Part shown: positions 36,960-45,238 of the stretch, in pieces
How positions within the stretch are numbered: the first letter of the stretch is position 1
Layout of the letters: every line of letters begins with the position of its first letter
NCBI RefSeq assembly: GCF_003545695.1
Contig: NZ_QUZZ01000007.1
Location: 62,001 to 126,000 of the forward strand
Direction of reading: 5' to 3'
Length of the DNA: 64,000 nt
Source of the DNA: Taibaiella helva
Lineage (GTDB): Bacteria; Bacteroidota; Bacteroidia; Chitinophagales; Chitinophagaceae
The notes under the pieces: generated by a model
What the model was told of the DNA's origin: nothing
Seen by the model: the letters and a program-made list of their open reading frames with translations, nothing else
Databases searched by the model: none
Program-made: the position numbers and the translations under genes

Positions 36960-38405
36960 TTACAAATTCTTCTCTCTTCTCAGTTTACTGTGCCTGCGGC
37001 CATAGCCCCAATAGATAACCATGCCTATCGCCAGCCATACCAGCAGCCGCAGCCAGGTTTCCCAGGGCAGCGAATACATCATCAGCAGGCAGGTAAGGAT
37101 GCCGAGTACAGGTACCACCGGTACCCAGGGCGTACGGAATGGCCGCGGAGTATCCGGTTGCTTTTTCCGGAGGATCAGCACCCCAAGACATACCATCACG
37201 AAGGCAAGCAAGGTGCCAATGCTGGTCATCTCACCCACAACTTCTATGGGCACCAGCGCGGCAAACAGGCTGATGAACAAGCCCAGCACGACATTGGAAC
37301 GTGAAGGCGTACGGAACCGCGGATGTAGCCGCGAGAACATGCCTGGTAGCAATCCGTCCCGGCTCATGGAATAGAATACCCTGGATTGGCCCAGCAGGTC
37401 GATGAGTATTACGGAAGTGTAGCCGATCAATATGGCCAGGATGATCACAAGGCCCAGCCATTCATAGGGCGTTTGCTGTATGGCCACAGCTACAGGCGCG
37501 GCGCTGTTCTTAAAGGCTGTATAGGAAGCCAGGCCCGTCATCACATAGCCAAACAGCACGAACAGCAAAGTGCAGATCAGCAGGGAGCCGATAATACCGA
37601 TCGGCATATTCCGCTGTGGGTTCTTTGTCTCCTGGGCCATAGTGGCGACAATGTCAAACCCGATAAAGACAAAAAACACAACACCTGCACCCCGCAGCAC
37701 CCCGCTCCAGCCAAAGGAACCGAAGCTGCCGGCGTTAGGCGGAATATAGGGATGATAGTGCACCGGGTTGATATAGCGCCAACCCAGGACAATGAACAGC
37801 AGCACCACGCCGACCTTAAGCGCCACGACGATCATATTGAACAGAGTCGACTTTTTCATGCCGCGAAGGATCACCGCAGTAAGAAACAGCACGATGAGCG
37901 CGGCCGGTAGGTTAAGCCAGCCGTGAAGAACGGTACCATCGCCTGTTGTTGCCGATTCAAAGGGCGAGTGGACCAGCTCGTAAGGAAGGGAAAGGTGCAG
38001 CTTGTCCAGGAACTTTACCAGGTACTGCGACCAGCTGATGGCTACGGTAGCCGCGCCCACGGCATATTCCAGCACCAGGTCCCAGCCGATGATCCAGGCA
38101 AAGACTTCGCCTACTGTAGCATAAGCATAGGTATAAGCGCTGCCCGATACCGGCACCATGGCCGCAAACTCGGCATAGCACAAGGCGCTGAATGCACAGC
38201 CTACAGCGGCGATCAGGAAGGACAAGGTAACGGCCGGACCGGCATTGTTGGCGGCGGCGATGCCGGTAAGCGAGAACAGGCCGGCGCCGATGATCACGCC
38301 AATACCGATGGCAATCAGGTTGACCGGGCCAAGGCTTCTTTTCAGTGTCGTACTGCCTTCCAGGGAAGCCTCCCGGCGTAGCATTTCTATAGATTTCTTC
38401 AACAT
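36960..38405 (-). CDS. APC-family amino acid permease (cationic amino acid transporter type)
   Basis: A 481-residue inner-membrane transporter with 12 or more helices. The APC start SLGPVNLIAIGIGVIIGAGLFSLTGIAAANNAGPAV and the CAT-type blocks CYAEFAAMVPVSGSAYTYAYATVGEVFAWIIGWDLVLEYAVG and FFVFIGFDIVATMAQETKNPQRNMPIGI are clear. It probably moves amino acids across the membrane; the exact substrate is not readable. It begins 5 bases after the EamA gene stop on the same strand, so the two transporters are one operon behind the cysteine-rich leader region. Confidence 0.93.
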   Translation of the reverse strand: MLKKSIEMLRREASLEGSTTLKRSLGPVNLIAIGIGVIIGAGLFSLTGIAAANNAGPAVTLSFLIAAVGCAFSALCYAEFAAMVPVSGSAYTYAYATVGEVFAWIIGWDLVLEYAVGAATVAISWSQYLVKFLDKLHLSLPYELVHSPFESATTGDGTVLHGWLNLPAALIVLFLTAVILRGMKKSTLFNMIVVALKVGVVLLFIVLGWRYINPVHYHPYIPPNAGSFGSFGWSGVLRGAGVVFFVFIGFDIVATMAQETKNPQRNMPIGIIGSLLICTLLFVLFGYVMTGLASYTAFKNSAAPVAVAIQQTPYEWLGLVIILAILIGYTSVILIDLLGQSRVFYSMSRDGLLPGMFSRLHPRFRTPSRSNVVLGLFISLFAALVPIEVVGEMTSIGTLLAFVMVCLGVLILRKKQPDTPRPFRTPWVPVVPVLGILTCLLMMYSLPWETWLRLLVWLAIGMVIYWGYGRRHSKLRREKNL

Positions 38406-38410
38406 ACTGG

Positions 38411-39412
38411 TTAAAAGTCTACAAGGTATTTATCAGAACGGGGTGGACTAAGCAAGGTTTTGAAGGAGCGCCGTACCCGGACGCGGAATCGTTTACTGAG
38501 CTTATAGCCGGAGGCGTTGGTCAGCAAAACGCCGGCAAGGATCACGGCCAGGCCGGCCAGCTGGATCAGGCTCATGTGCTCATCTATGAACAGCCATCCT
38601 ACCACTACAGCAACGATAGGATTGACATAGGTATGCGTGCTGACCAGTACCGGCGACTTGACTGACAGTAGCCAGATATAGGACAGGTAGGCGACGATGG
38701 AGCCCAACAGTACCAGGAATGCCAGCCCCAGCCAGGATTGCAACGCCACCCTTGCCGGTGCCCAATCCTGCCATTCGCCGCGGGCCGCGCTGATAGCGAG
38801 GGCCGTGACACCCGCGATCAGCAGCTGCTGTGCGATATTCATAAAGGTGGAATGATCGGCCCGCCGACGTTTGGCATAGAGCGATCCCAGCACCCAGGAG
38901 ACGGAGCTAAGAGCCAGGACACCGAAAGCCAGTATGCGCGCAGTATTGTTGCTCTGCTGTTGCGCACCGCCGATGCTGTCGGCAAAGAACAGCAGCAAGC
39001 CTGCAAAGCCGGTGATCAGGCCGGCTATGGTCGTCAGGTTACTGAAATAGCTGCTCCAGTTTTTACGGTCTAGCGCAATGAACCAGAAAGGCCCGGTAGC
39101 GATAGCGATCGCCGCTTCGGTAGCGCTGATGTATTGCTCGCCCCAGGCCACGAGGCCGGTACCGCCGGTAAGAATGAGTATACCGGTAATGCCGTTCCGG
39201 ATCCAGTTAGTACGGGAACGGGCCTGTTCTTTCCTGGAAAACCGCCAGAGCAGCAGCAGGATGCCGGCAATGCTGAAACGCAGGCCGGACAGGAGAAAAG
39301 GAGGGATGCCACGCAAGCCGTAGCTGATCGCCAGGAAGGTGGAGCCCCAGATAATATAGACGCTGGCAAAAGCCAGGAAGGTGAATAATTTTGTTCTTGT
39401 TGCGGGTAACAT
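38411..39412 (-). CDS. EamA/DMT-family exporter
   Basis: A 333-residue inner-membrane protein with ten helices in two EamA repeats. Marks: FLAFASVYIIWGSTFLAISYGLRGIPPFLLSGLRFSIAG at the start, ATGPFWFIALDR, and the second repeat's PVLVSTHTYVNPIVAVVVGWLFIDEHMSLIQLAGLAVILAGVLLTN. The closest recognisable group is the YedA/RhaT-like exporters; the family includes the cysteine and O-acetylserine exporter EamA. It is the first large gene downstream of two small cysteine-rich reading frames with terminators, which suggests control by cysteine or a related amino acid. Confidence 0.92.
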   Translation of the reverse strand: MLPATRTKLFTFLAFASVYIIWGSTFLAISYGLRGIPPFLLSGLRFSIAGILLLLWRFSRKEQARSRTNWIRNGITGILILTGGTGLVAWGEQYISATEAAIAIATGPFWFIALDRKNWSSYFSNLTTIAGLITGFAGLLLFFADSIGGAQQQSNNTARILAFGVLALSSVSWVLGSLYAKRRRADHSTFMNIAQQLLIAGVTALAISAARGEWQDWAPARVALQSWLGLAFLVLLGSIVAYLSYIWLLSVKSPVLVSTHTYVNPIVAVVVGWLFIDEHMSLIQLAGLAVILAGVLLTNASGYKLSKRFRVRVRRSFKTLLSPPRSDKYLVDF

Positions 39413-39455: not shown

Positions 39456-39492
39456 GAAAAAAGGGCCTTCTGCCGGTACGACAGAAGGCCCT
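39456..39492 (-). terminator. Attenuator-like terminator 2 ahead of the EamA gene
   Basis: On the minus strand an 11-bp perfect stem (AGGGCCTTCTG on the plus strand pairs with CAGAAGGCCCT) is followed by six T residues. It stands 44 bases before the EamA ATG with only the small cysteine-rich frames upstream, so it must act before the structural genes, as in an attenuator. Confidence 0.85.
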
Positions 39493-39513
39493 GGTGTTGC
39501 AGATACGCTGGTA

Positions 39514-39609
39514 TCAGGCACAACATCGCTGGCTCCGTCGCCGGAACAGGGACATACAACAAGCGCAGCAATAAGTGAAGTACAGCATATTCTTAAAAAG
39601 AGATCGCAT
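39514..39609 (-). CDS. Putative cysteine-rich leader peptide 2
   Basis: A 31-codon frame on the minus strand: ATG at 39609, TGA at 39514-39516. It encodes seven cysteine... more exactly six, in the clusters YCCACCM (residues 13-19) and RCCA at the very end. An internal ATG at residue 8 is an alternative start. The frame lies between two terminator hairpins. Cysteine-codon clusters shortly before a terminator are the classical layout of ribosome-mediated attenuation, in which scarcity of charged tRNA changes RNA folding. No homologue is known to me; the call rests on layout and on resemblance to leader 1. Confidence 0.5.
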   Translation of the reverse strand: MRSLFKNMLYFTYCCACCMSLFRRRSQRCCA

Positions 39610-39638
39610 AAAAAAAGCCCTTCCGGTTCGGGAAAGGC
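39610..39638 (-). terminator. Attenuator-like terminator 1
   Basis: On the minus strand GCCTTTCC pairs with GGAAGGGC (one G-U) over a 6-base loop and is followed by seven T residues, which run straight into the ATG of leader 2. It follows leader 1 by about 30 bases. Confidence 0.75.
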
Positions 39639-39669
39639 AGCTCAGTTTACAGCAGCATATTGATGCAGA

Positions 39670-39753
39670 TCAGCCTTTCCATAGCGCAGCAGTGTACATG
39701 CAACAAGTGTTGCAACAGGCAGCGGTAACGATATGGCAGCGGAAATGGCTCAT
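39670..39753 (-). CDS. Putative cysteine-rich leader peptide 1
   Basis: A 27-codon frame on the minus strand: ATG at 39753, TGA at 39670-39672. It carries five cysteines, four of them in ACCNTCCM (residues 12-19), very similar to CCACCM in leader 2. A good promoter (TTG-N20-TAAGTTTG) ends 8 bases before its ATG, so it would be the first thing translated from a nearly leaderless transcript. A terminator follows about 30 bases after its stop. It is too short for domain evidence; the promoter fit and the repeated motif are the support. Confidence 0.55.
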   Translation of the reverse strand: MSHFRCHIVTAACCNTCCMYTAALWKG

Positions 39754-39761
39754 TTGCGAAG

Positions 39762-39792
39762 CAAACTTAGGGGAATATCCCGGCCACTCCAA
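39762..39792 (-). promoter_or_regulatory. Promoter of the leader/EamA/permease operon
   Basis: On the minus strand TTG (39790-39792), a 20-base spacer, and TAAGTTTG (39762-39769) give an exact match to the Bacteroidota consensus. The same 20-base spacing is seen at the guaB promoter. Confidence 0.75.
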
Positions 39793-39965
39793 GGCGATAA
39801 CAATTTATTGACCTGGGTCAAGCAAATGTCCCATATGAAACCGCTAAAAAGAAATAGCGGGCCGGAACAGGCCTGTTCCCAGGCGCTCCAGATTAAGGTA
39901 ATAAGACTGATAACAGGATCAATAACATTTAATCCGGAATTGATCGGGAGCCAATATGAAATACG

Positions 39966-39973
39966 TACTTTTG
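39966..39973 (+). promoter_or_regulatory. Candidate -7 box of the lpxR-like gene
   Basis: TACTTTTG fits TAnnTTTG, 14 bases before the ATG; a TTG lies 23 bases upstream (39940-39942), slightly far. Confidence 0.4.
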
Positions 39974-39987
39974 GCCACCGACGAACA

Positions 39988-40989
39988 ATGAACCGTTTCC
40001 TTTTCTTCTGCAGTCTGTTCACCTTAACCTTGCTGTTTGGCAGGGTAGGGCCTTCTTTTAGCCAACAGGAAATGCCCTACCGGCATGCATTGCGGGGCTA
40101 TGAAGATAACGACCTGATCAAGATCTTCGGACCCACCTCGGATAAAGGTTATACCAACGGCACCCGCTTCGATTATTATTTTGTCAAAGACTCTTCCCGT
40201 TTCTTCCTGGATAAGCTGATGCCTAAAGCCGGGAAACAGGCCGTAAATACTTATGCCTTGGGATTGATGCAAACCATGTTCACACCATCGGATCTGAACG
40301 CTACAGAACCCGACGTATCAGACTGGCCTTATACCGGCGCTTTGTTTCTTAGCTACAGCCAGCATTCTTCCAATGCAGAGAAAGGCTATAACCTGCAGAC
40401 CGAGCTGATCGCCGGTGTGATGGGACCTGCTTCAATGGCGGAGCAGCTGCAAACCGTTATCCATAAGCTGATCAATTCCGCAAAGCCCATGGGTTGGGAT
40501 AAGCAATATCCTACCGATATCCTGCTGAACCTGAATCTCAGCCTGGAAAAGCGGCTTTGGCGCTATGGCGGATGGCTGGATGTTACCGGCGGCGGACAAG
40601 CAATGCTGGGGACGATGCTGGATGGCGCTTCCTTGTATGGACTGGTGCGCATCGGGAAAATGAATGATTATTTCGACGGCTTGCTCCCGCAGTTTGTGAG
40701 CCGTAAAAAGCATAAGCTCCAGGCTTATATTACGGCAAGGCCCTCGCTGGAATGGGTCGGTTATAATGCCGTGATCGAAGGTGGGGTTTTTGCCGGAAGG
40801 TCGGACTATTATCGCGGAAAGGACCAGCGTATCAGCAGCAACCACAGCATATCGCGACGCCTGGACCTGGCAGCAGTACTGGCTTACGGACCATTGAGCG
40901 TTACCTTCACCCAGCGCATCATGCCCCGCCTGATCGATGGCCTCAACCACGAACGATTGGGCAATATCTCCCTGTACGTGGCCTGGTAA
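39988..40989 (+). CDS. LpxR-family lipid A deacylase-like outer-membrane protein
   Basis: A 333-residue exported barrel. ATG 39988 is chosen because it gives a signal peptide (FLFFCSLFTLTLLFGRVGPSFSQ); the open frame upstream runs through the leader-control region. The LpxR marks are present: an Asn/Asp pair in GYEDNDLIKIFGPTSDKGYTNGTRFDYYF and the block QMNLAE-like ALGLMQTMFTPSDLNATEPDVSDWPYTGALFLSYS. LpxR removes the 3'-acyloxyacyl chain of lipid A in the outer membrane. A PAP2 phosphatase gene converges on it from the right, possibly also acting on lipid A or lipid carriers. Confidence 0.87.
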   Translation: MNRFLFFCSLFTLTLLFGRVGPSFSQQEMPYRHALRGYEDNDLIKIFGPTSDKGYTNGTRFDYYFVKDSSRFFLDKLMPKAGKQAVNTYALGLMQTMFTPSDLNATEPDVSDWPYTGALFLSYSQHSSNAEKGYNLQTELIAGVMGPASMAEQLQTVIHKLINSAKPMGWDKQYPTDILLNLNLSLEKRLWRYGGWLDVTGGGQAMLGTMLDGASLYGLVRIGKMNDYFDGLLPQFVSRKKHKLQAYITARPSLEWVGYNAVIEGGVFAGRSDYYRGKDQRISSNHSISRRLDLAAVLAYGPLSVTFTQRIMPRLIDGLNHERLGNISLYVAW

Positions 40990-42504: not shown

Positions 42505-43521
42505 TTACCTCTTCAGCCATTGCTGGAACAATATGCTGATCTGCTCCGTCTCAACCAGGAAGCCGTCGTGACCATAGGGCGAGGTAATCTCTTCGTAGCG
42601 GCAATGAGGCAGGTGGGCTGCCAGCTGCCGTTGCTCTTCCGGCGGGCAGAGCATGTCGCTGGAAATGCCGATCAGCAGCACCGGTTGCTGCAGACCGGCG
42701 AGGACTGAAGGAATATGGCCACCGCGGCCGCGCGACAGATTATGGCTGTCCATCGCCTTGCTGAGGACATAATAGCTGTAGGCATTGAAGCGCCGGACCA
42801 GCTTATCCCCCTGGTAATGCATATAGGAGCTGGCTTTGAAATGATCTGTTTTTTCGGGGTCGGGATCGGTTTGCTGCTGCACCATCAGCTCATAGTTGCG
42901 GTAGGTGAGCATGCCTATGGCGCGGGCGGCTTTCATACCGCGTGCCCCCGCTGCGGGGCTTTCTTCGCCAAAGCTGGCGTCAGCTTCAATCGCGATACGC
43001 TGCGCTGTATGGACAGCAATGCCCCAGGCACTTTCAGCAGCCGAGGTGGCCAGCAGGAACAGCCTGTCGATCCGCTGCGGCTCTGTCAGTGCCCACTCCA
43101 GCGCCTGGTAGCCGCCCATGCTGCCACCTGCCAGCAGGTGTATCTGTTCAATGCCCAGGTGTTGCCGCAGCAGGATATGGGCCTGTACCATATCCCGGAT
43201 GCTGAGCAACGGAAAGCTGCTGTAATAAGGTGTTCCCTTACTCTTATCAATACTTAGCGGGCCGGTGCTGCCATAGCAGCTGCCCAGGATATTGGCGCAG
43301 ACAATAAAGTGCCGGTCCGGATCGAAAGCCATGCCTTTGCCGACCATGCCTGCCCACCAGTCGGCGGCATCGGAGCTGGCCGTCAGCGCATGGCAGATCC
43401 AGACTACGTTATCGCCTGCCTTGTTCAGCTGGCCGTATGTGGTATAGCCGATATGGAGCTCAGGTAATACCGCGCCGTTTTCCAGCGAAAAAGGATGGTT
43501 GTAATGATAGCTTTGCTGCAT
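42505..43521 (-). CDS. metX: Homoserine O-acetyltransferase
   Basis: A 338-residue alpha/beta hydrolase-fold acyltransferase that makes O-acetylhomoserine from acetyl-CoA and homoserine, the first committed step of methionine synthesis. Marks: VWICHALTASSDAADWWAGMVGKG, NILGSCYGSTGPLS, nucleophile Ser134 in LAGGSMGGYQALEW, the late aspartate in GISSDMLCPPEEQ and the histidine in YGHDGFLVE. Some enzymes of this family use succinyl-CoA, and the sulfhydrylase nearby resembles the O-succinylhomoserine type, so acyl specificity is open. It is divergent from osmC/metZ with a 71-base shared control region. Confidence 0.93.
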   Translation of the reverse strand: MQQSYHYNHPFSLENGAVLPELHIGYTTYGQLNKAGDNVVWICHALTASSDAADWWAGMVGKGMAFDPDRHFIVCANILGSCYGSTGPLSIDKSKGTPYYSSFPLLSIRDMVQAHILLRQHLGIEQIHLLAGGSMGGYQALEWALTEPQRIDRLFLLATSAAESAWGIAVHTAQRIAIEADASFGEESPAAGARGMKAARAIGMLTYRNYELMVQQQTDPDPEKTDHFKASSYMHYQGDKLVRRFNAYSYYVLSKAMDSHNLSRGRGGHIPSVLAGLQQPVLLIGISSDMLCPPEEQRQLAAHLPHCRYEEITSPYGHDGFLVETEQISILFQQWLKR

Positions 43522-44074: not shown

Positions 44075-45238
44075 ATGCATCCGATCTCGAAAGCCATACG
44101 GATACAAGCCGCGCGCAGCGCGCAAATGGAGCATTCCGTACCCCTTTACCTGACCAGCAGCTTCTGCTTCGATTCGGCTGAAGAGATGAGGGCCACCTTC
44201 GCCGATGAACGCGAAGCCAATATCTACAGCCGTTTCGTTAATCCCAATGTAACCGAATTCACGGATAAGATCGCTGCTCTGGAAGGCGCAGAAGCAGCCT
44301 ATGCCACGGCATCCGGCATGAGCGCGATCTCGTCCACTTTCCTGGCCTTGCTGAAGCAAGGCGATCATCTGCTCAGCTGCAATGCAATTTTTGGCAGCAC
44401 GCATACCGTATTAAGCAAATACCTCCCTAAATATGGTATCAGCTATTCTTATTTTGCAGCAGATGCGCCGGAGGCCTGGGAACAGGCCATACGCCCCGAG
44501 ACCAGGATGATCTATGTGGAAACACCGACCAACCCCGGCCTGGACATTCTCGATCTTGAACTGCTGGGCCGGCTGGCCCGCAAGCATAACCTGCTGCTGG
44601 TGGTCGACAATTGCTTTGCCACGCCCGTAGCACAGCTGCCGATACAATATGGCGCCGACCTCGTGATCCATTCCGGAACAAAATGGCTGGACGGGCAGGG
44701 TAGGGTGCTGGCCGGTGTAGTGGCCGGCAAAAAGGCGCTGATCCAGGAGATCTATCTCTTCTGCCGCAGCATGGGCCCATCGCTGTCGCCATTCAATGCC
44801 TGGATATTGAGCAAAAGCCTGGAAACGCTTGATGTGCGTATGGAACGACATGCATCCAATGCGCTTTTCCTGGCGCAGCAGCTCGAGGGACACCCGGCCT
44901 TAAGCAGCCTCAGGTATCCTTTTCTGCCCAGCCATCCGCAACATGCGGTCGCACAGCGACAAATGAAAAATGGTGGCGGTATTGTCTGCTTCGAGCTGAA
45001 AGGCGGACTGGATGCCGGCCGGCAGTTCCTCGACCGTTTGCAGATGCTGTCGCTGACGGCCAACCTGGGCGATACCCGCAGCATTGCTTCACATCCGGCC
45101 AGTACGACACATGCCAGATTAAGTGAGGCAGAACGTCTGGCGGTCAATATTACGCCCGGCCTGATCCGTATCTCCGTAGGCCTGGAGCACCGCGACGATA
45201 TTCTTGCCGATATCCTGCAGGCACTGCCGGTATCCTGA
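44075..45238 (+). CDS. metZ: O-acyl-homoserine sulfhydrylase (Cys/Met PLP family)
   Basis: A 387-residue PLP enzyme of the cystathionine-gamma-synthase fold. The PLP lysine is Lys203 in HSGTKWLDGQGRVLAG, a motif characteristic of the MetZ subgroup; Asp178 (VVDNCFATP), YSRFVNPNVTEFTDKIAALEGAE and the C-terminal TTHARLSEAERLAVNITPGLIRISVGLEH are also typical. It converts O-acetyl- or O-succinylhomoserine plus sulfide to homocysteine. With the neighbouring metX it gives direct sulfhydrylation for methionine synthesis. Confidence 0.93.
   Translation: MHPISKAIRIQAARSAQMEHSVPLYLTSSFCFDSAEEMRATFADEREANIYSRFVNPNVTEFTDKIAALEGAEAAYATASGMSAISSTFLALLKQGDHLLSCNAIFGSTHTVLSKYLPKYGISYSYFAADAPEAWEQAIRPETRMIYVETPTNPGLDILDLELLGRLARKHNLLLVVDNCFATPVAQLPIQYGADLVIHSGTKWLDGQGRVLAGVVAGKKALIQEIYLFCRSMGPSLSPFNAWILSKSLETLDVRMERHASNALFLAQQLEGHPALSSLRYPFLPSHPQHAVAQRQMKNGGGIVCFELKGGLDAGRQFLDRLQMLSLTANLGDTRSIASHPASTTHARLSEAERLAVNITPGLIRISVGLEHRDDILADILQALPVS

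Follow-up and report, generated by a model that had tools for sequence, protein, structure and literature searches.

Tandem cysteine-codon leader peptides with intrinsic terminators upstream of an EamA/APC transporter operon in Taibaiella helva

Described attenuators and the layout of the locus

Leader-peptide attenuation is textbook biology. Polycysteine attenuators encoded by leaderless sORFs were reportedly described in mycobacteria by Canestrari et al. (2020). The E. coli trp attenuator shares with the locus presented here a codon run and a choice between antiterminator and terminator (also PMC3641672); it reads Trp codons, however, and is a single unit. Cysteine leaders are known in Mycobacterium (PMC1262725, PMC13236596); shared traits are Cys codons, a start codon lying at the RNA start or close to it, and the control of cysteine genes. 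The available text of PMC1262725 reports no conserved terminator hairpins and suggests Rho, whereas the present locus has intrinsic terminators, in two or three units in series, in Bacteroidota and before transporter genes. The short ORF uORFC-8-2 (PMC8632094) likewise combines tandem Cys codons with a terminal U run and presumed ribosome-mediated attenuation, but it is a single leader and lies before a tRNA-synthetase gene, cysS; the main text of that paper contains no word beginning with “bacteroid”.

Two serial leader ORFs, each within an attenuator, occur in Salmonella mgtCBR, “a singular example” in the words of its authors (PMC3641672). There, the two signals differ (ATP and proline) and act additively, and the stem-loops are unlike intrinsic terminators; in the present locus, Cys codons are found in both leaders, and an intrinsic terminator lies behind each. 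The pair of attenuators within a single leader RNA is shared with mgtCBR; a difference in signal, judged by codons, is not: both leaders are Cys-rich in the window and combine Cys and Met in relatives. Within the same phylum, “strong clues” of leader-peptide attenuation at amino-acid operons have been reported for Flavobacterium psychrophilum (PMC9723704), and 5' UTR sORFs reminiscent of leader peptides, several of them in one UTR (BT_4401), for Bacteroides thetaiotaomicron (PMC7366714); the available parts of both papers name neither a cysteine leader nor tandem Cys attenuators. Among the best-matching open-access titles and abstracts, none describes a serial leader-peptide attenuator for one and the same signal or a cysteine leader in Bacteroidota, which is weak evidence of absence. 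The mechanism considered below is a known one, in a stacked form that was not found described and in a new place; the pair itself is real and conserved.

The window, i.e. the whole stretch of 64,000 nucleotides that was analysed, comes from Taibaiella helva (genome G000). On its minus strand, direct reading together with ORF and terminator scans bears out the predicted order of promoter, Cys leader, terminator, Cys leader, terminator, EamA gene and APC gene (Table 1). The hairpin and the six T of terminator 2 also stand (one of these T is paired within the stem), but the stem had been undercounted at 11 bp. The ATG of leader 2 directly abuts the T run of terminator 1.

Table 1. Features of the leader region and neighbouring genes, in window coordinates
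Feature	Position	Strand	Description
Promoter, Bacteroidota-type	39762..39792	minus	TTG at 39792-39790, N20, TAAGTTTG at 39769-39762
Leader 1	39670..39753	minus	27 codons, MSHFRCHIVTAACCNTCCMYTAALWKG, contains CCNTCCM
Antiterminator arm, attenuator 1	39673..39680	minus	GGAAAGGC, final leader 1 codons directly 5' of stop
Intrinsic terminator 1	39617..39638	minus	8 pairs, loop 6; T7 at 39616-39610
Leader 2	39514..39609	minus	31 codons, MRSLFKNMLYFTYCCACCMSLFRRRSQRCCA, contains CCACCM
Proposed antiterminator arm, attenuator 2	39531..39541	minus	GCGACGGAGCC
Intrinsic terminator 2	39462..39492	minus	14-pair stem, loop 3, -25.5 kcal/mol
EamA-type DMT transporter	38411..39412	minus	333 aa; PF00892, 109.7 bits
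APC-type amino-acid permease	36960..38405	minus	481 aa; PF13520, 191.6 bits
metX/metZ-like genes	42505-43521 and 44075-45238		

A scan of the 64-kb window for TTG-N18-21-TAnnTTTG gave three matches on the plus strand and a single one, namely the leader promoter, on the minus strand; the RNA start predicted for this promoter lies no more than a few bases from the ATG of leader 1. A promoter of the same form ends 7-10 nt 5' of that ATG in the window genome, in the same-genus genomes G001 and G002 (the latter equated with T. koreensis, L006, by identical contig coordinates), in G642 and in G954, and has no match before leader 1 in G843 and G126. TAnnTTTG is absent between terminator 1 and EamA, where a second promoter was sought.

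Cysteine accounts for 5 of the 26 codons past the start of leader 1 and for 6 of the 30 past the start of leader 2, compared with 18 of 3356 codons in seven genes of the window (11 of 56 for the two leaders). When frames were defined by an ATG, a length of 15-45 codons and at least four Cys within six codons, the 610-nt intergenic strand held two of them; among 5000 dinucleotide shuffles, none held two and 13 held one. Both strands of the whole window yielded one further frame of this kind (minus strand, 40832-40894), against one in total in ten shuffled windows. In the 4.8-Mb genome, the pattern TGYTGY-N3-6-TGYTGYATG occurs five times, two of these being the leaders, and the reversed control does not occur. 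A known riboswitch or leader family was rejected, an Rfam search of the window at gathering score having returned 0 matches.

Two other matches to the genomic pattern were rejected as further leaders, L001 lying antisense inside a long frame and L003 inside a frame; another, L002, was viewed as sequence only. The divergent LpxR-like gene (39733-40989, plus strand) starts in the ORF list at an ATG inside the leader region; position 39988 seems the more plausible start, giving the signal-like N-terminus MNRFLFF.

The predicted switch

At attenuator 1, GGAAAGGC can form a perfect 8-bp helix with GCCTTTCC at 39638-39631, the 5' arm of terminator 1. The leader 1 helix of relatives consists of other sequences at about the same place (final codons and stop). 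Shuffles giving an equally good leader 1 duplex numbered, per 500, 6 in G000, 5 in G002, 65 in G001, 10 in G642, 8 in G843, 21 in G954, 6 in G126 and 1 in G101; the combined p value is 1.2e-6 for these genomes without G002, which is too near G000 and is omitted from all combined values. The duplex tests leave aside G053 and the third leader of G001, for which no terminator was called, and the upstream terminator of G031, which has no clear leader.

The EamA-proximal duplexes are less distinct. In the window, GCGACGGAGCC pairs with 39490-39488 and 39485-39478, the nascent fold having -24.9 kcal/mol. Equally good shuffles numbered, again per 500, 79 in G000, which is not significant, 6 in G002, 163 in G001, 71 in G642, 170 in G843, 30 in G954, 87 in G126, 77 in G279, 280 in G101 and 167 in G031, and the proximal antiterminators are jointly not significant (combined p 0.061 without G002). 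The nascent fold of attenuator 2 does switch: with the ribosome edge assumed to lie 15 nt beyond the start of the A-site codon, upstream pairing of the terminator 5' arm is 0.70-0.72 for a stalled ribosome versus 0.13 for one at the stop; the corresponding values of attenuator 1 are 1.00 (stalled on Cys) and 0.24. When the finished RNA is folded to equilibrium with the ribosome stalled, terminator 1 forms at 0.73-0.90 and terminator 2 at 0.97-0.98. Since the complete hairpin favours the terminator in every state tried, the switch must be kinetic, decided during RNA synthesis.

From these elements we infer translation, stalling and read-through as follows. When Cys-tRNA is ample, the ribosome would reach the stop codon of leader 1 and mask the GGAAAGGC arm, so that terminator 1 forms. 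When Cys-tRNA is scarce, the ribosome would stall on the CCNTCC codons, the 5' arm of terminator 1 would be captured by GGAAAGGC, and transcription would continue. The polymerase would then face the same test at leader 2, with the CCACC codons and a second antiterminator and terminator, before it reaches EamA and APC. The two leaky gates would multiply, so that basal read-through would be low and the response to cysteine steep.

Judged from the sequence, it is quite probable that two ribosome-mediated transcription attenuators stand in series here, keyed to Cys codons. A run of regulatory codons lies in a short frame, an intrinsic terminator precedes the gene, and for attenuator 1 there is an antiterminator; the leaders are conserved in relatives together with their terminators and, for leader 1, antiterminators, which supports the original prediction in this central point.

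Leaders in relatives and their origin

Close EamA orthologues (E <=1e-85) have a scattered distribution: they were found in 8 of the 394 genomes searched from the same family and in 3 of 219 genomes of genus g108, but in 66 of 118 genomes of genus g107; across the phylum, 9 of 395 genomes carry orthologues at E <=1e-75. Named loci (L007-L010), rank labels and genus sizes suggest that g107 is Chryseobacterium-like and g108 Flavobacterium-like. T. koreensis keeps both leaders and terminators, with CC pairs and the peptide ends LWKG and LFRRRSQRCCA. Its leader 1 is MNSQYRHINSNACCNNCCMCMAMLWKG and its leader 2 MYFISQNMLLHTHCCPCCMYLFRRRSQRCCA, and the DNA of the last 12 codons of the latter, including the stop, is identical to that of the window. 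G001 has three successive Cys leaders, the third followed by a strong hairpin with a poor T run that is absent from the terminator-scan calls. Loss of the Cys codons in relatives had been named beforehand as a result that would speak against the prediction; in Taibaiella, they are conserved.

Beyond the genus, G642, G843, G954 (g108), G126 and G101 have two Cys/Met leaders each with a terminator after every one, the poorest being leader 1 of G954 (two Cys and one internal Met); the leaders of relatives were chosen for Cys or Met, so their richness in these codons is no independent evidence. Altogether, 8 of the 11 close orthologues outside g107 have tandem leaders. Leader frames before EamA are present in related Chitinophagaceae, and tandem in several. 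Three of the 11 orthologues are not clearly tandem: a single leader was found in G279, a single Cys leader with an extra upstream terminator in G031, and a Cys frame with no terminator found nearby in G053. Before more distant EamA homologues (L011-L019, L040, L043, L103-L105), no comparable leader was recognised by inspection.

In the Chryseobacterium-like genus, 35 loci were read (31 of the 66 matches and the four named loci; species may repeat, and 31 of the 35 aligned sequences are distinct). All 35 have one leader and terminator within the ~400 nt upstream of EamA that were searched. In the DNA alignment, for which the stop codon rather than the motif set the cut, one ATG codon is invariant in 35 of 35 sequences (columns 19-21), and two further codons are nearly always ATG. 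Relative to the invariant Met, on which the peptide count was anchored, Met is found at -6 in 33 and at -5 in 32 of the 35 peptides, and Cys occupies position -1 in 30 of them and position -2 in 14. The Cys codons that are kept in Taibaiella are here partly lost, whereas the Met codons stay. For the predicted cysteine signal, this means that the Cys codons themselves are borne out, but that cysteine alone is probably not what is sensed: Met codons are intermixed in relatives and better kept in the Chryseobacterium-like loci, and the signal is probably Cys(/Met).

The covariation that had been proposed as a check on the hairpins is found in the terminator of this alignment (16 double-changed cells, a value as high in 0 of 500 shuffles). 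Its antiterminator is conserved, with 90% of cells paired and no more than 56% in slid registers, but its covariation does not exceed that of shuffles. Antiterminator duplexes as good were obtained in 45 and 30 of 500 shuffles for two Chryseobacterium-like loci, and in 1, 18, 22, 2, 10, 0, 2 and 5 of 300 for eight in a separate run. In a subgroup (L110, L115, L120, L121, L124, L131-L133 and L136), the leader end is altered (GTGGGT) along with the terminator loop (CCAAG or CCGAG); the two changes are correlated but do not amount to a simple exchange of base pairs.

The shared CCxxCCM pattern had been taken to suggest that the leader was duplicated, but leader 1 (with its terminator) is far closer to leader 1 of other species (z 15.8 for G002, 8.3 for G001, 7.1 for G843 and 1.9 for G642) than to its own leader 2 (z 3.4). 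Leader 2 compares with leader 2 elsewhere at z 23.1 (G002), 3.5 (G001), 2.8 (G843) and 0.6 (G642). Within genomes, leaders 1 and 2 resemble each other at z 3.4 in G000, 0.8 in G002, 3.7 in G001, 2.0 in G642, 2.7 in G843, 2.0 in G126 and 3.1 in G101, i.e. positively in seven of seven; shared Cys codons or an old duplication could give this likeness. An old common origin of the two leaders may be reflected in these positive values of 0.8 to 3.7. Leader 2 of G126 matches the Chryseobacterium-like leader at z 9.7 and 6.3, more closely than leader 1 of G126 does (z 2.7, one comparison), which suggests an old EamA-proximal unit and an upstream unit that was added or lost. In the tree, leader-bearing EamA proteins group with moderate support only (85/63), too weakly resolved for deciding between gain and loss.

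These relationships bear on a reading in which only the EamA-proximal attenuator matters and the upstream unit is an accessory or relic. The single leader of the Chryseobacterium-like loci and of G279 would agree with it, as would the resemblance of leader 2 of G126 to the Chryseobacterium-like leader. It is unlikely nonetheless, given that the upstream unit has the better antiterminators and is conserved within Taibaiella and within g108.

If both attenuators act, the locus may exemplify a stackable, codon-programmable starvation switch. One to three attenuators of the same class would stand in series, their read-through probabilities multiplying into a steep gate, and evolution would alter the number of units, the Cys/Met codons and the partner transporter, be it an amino-acid permease or a MetNIQ-like importer; the chances of this combined reading seem about even. 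A natural series of one, two and three attenuators of the same class before one orthologous gene allows the effect of stacking on leak, range and steepness to be tested.

Sulfur metabolism and the role of the operon

The whole genome of the window species has no match to sulfite reductase and none to PAPS reductase at E <=1e-20; one partial PAPS_reduct match (22.3 bits, or 22.7 with neighbours; cut-off 22.5) in a 516-aa frame is taken for a different enzyme. Both enzymes are present in G001 and G002. In the genome G003, neither scores above cut-off, and EamA has no match there. Unlike G001 and G002, the window species seems to lack assimilatory sulfate reduction.

None of the five NCBIfam models listed is matched at its cut-off by the EamA protein, and solved structures gave two weak EmrE matches only; for the APC protein, the best NCBIfam model is BcaP (563.5 bits, cut-off 690). 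The APC gene adjoins EamA in the window, G001, G002, G031, G642 and G843. Among three Chryseobacterium-like loci read downstream, EamA is followed by metN-, metI- and metQ-like genes in L007 (assigned by reading translations) and directly by the start of a metN-like gene in L099 and L100; a metN-like gene lies one gene beyond EamA in G126 and G101, and in G954 no next gene was identified. Changes in the sensor codons seem to go along with changes in the partner transporter, a correlation drawn from few independent lineages. In two Mucilaginibacter-like loci (L103, L105), where no leader was recognised, a metK-like gene (for S-adenosylmethionine synthetase) immediately precedes an EamA homologue of 45-46% identity, a further hint at sulfur.

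The leaders do not appear to belong to APC rather than to EamA: none of 11 APC relatives (L178, L180-L189; 61-78% identical, from genomes without a close EamA match) has an upstream frame that passes the Cys/Met filter. Just upstream of one of them, L178, there is a terminator-like site and, by eye, a frame with one Cys.

We infer that the operon rather likely serves uptake of cysteine, methionine or a related organic sulfur compound, because it is a starvation-opened transporter operon in a genome that is probably unable to reduce sulfate. The original prediction had assigned it to cysteine export, and attenuators that respond to Cys as described above could, in principle, control an operon exporting cysteine or a relative. 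Some members of the EamA family export cysteine or O-acetylserine, and membership in this family speaks for such a role. The EamA protein scores, however, 32.6 bits against the O-acetylserine/cysteine exporter model PRK11453 (NF008523), the cut-off of which is 472; the sensing codons imply induction by starvation, in which the attenuator should open and which is the better fit to uptake; and in relatives EamA is accompanied by metN-like genes or by an amino-acid permease. Export is improbable on these grounds, and the exporter assignment is probably wrong in direction. The locus also points to a function of the EamA/APC/MetNIQ-like transporter group and to methionine-codon attenuators.

Elsewhere in the same family, similar leaders precede genes of cysteine synthesis. 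The cysH-cysD-cysN operons of G001 and G002 are preceded by frames that close with runs of Cys codons: MNKQTTAALQSLHAPTHAALMMACCCSCFCCCC in L090 (reverse complement 425-526) and MSFYNVSAFSAYVHPVAPVTCCRIVCSHLAICCCC in L091 (1220-1327). In genus g7, short CC-rich leaders and terminators precede cysH in L078, L079, L081 and L083, and CC-rich leaders and terminators precede siroheme-methylase/sulfite-reductase-like genes in L080 and L082 (gene names from translations, apart from the PAPS_reduct searches). Within the family, poly-Cys frames lie before 6 of the 30 cysH loci listed (66 genomes have matches), compared with 1 of 30 on the opposite strand. Such frames are linked to sulfur genes, and together with the transporter locus they suggest that Bacteroidota have a regulon for sulfur amino-acid starvation that is run by leader peptides.

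The same neighbours weigh on the idea that the leaders sense metal or thiol stress, with Cys/Met/His-rich nascent chains binding copper or zinc and stalling. A mixture of Cys, Met and His is found in some leaders, such as HHSMDCCHMMMCVHCC in G843, and copper sensing by a nascent exported protein has a precedent in CutF (PMC9973294). By this analogy metal sensing might be conceivable, but it is a long shot: the leaders stand before amino-acid transporter genes and, elsewhere in the family, before genes for Cys synthesis, and the 35 Chryseobacterium-like leaders have no fixed His column. That Cys-rich frames, which as short frames presumably come cheaply, arose by chance beside ordinary terminators is hardly credible given the 0 of 5000 shuffles with two frames and the conservation across genera.

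A family-wide search for CCM followed by a terminator matched 111 of 394 genomes, the reversed control matching some as well. Besides the EamA locus of G001, eleven places were fetched from it. Six, located before cysH or siroheme/sulfite-reductase-like genes, were accepted as leaders and one, L088, as a possible leader; L084-L087 were not accepted. In L088, around position 963, a CCM leader-like frame and a strong terminator lie before a thioesterase-like gene, which may reflect a thiol link or chance.
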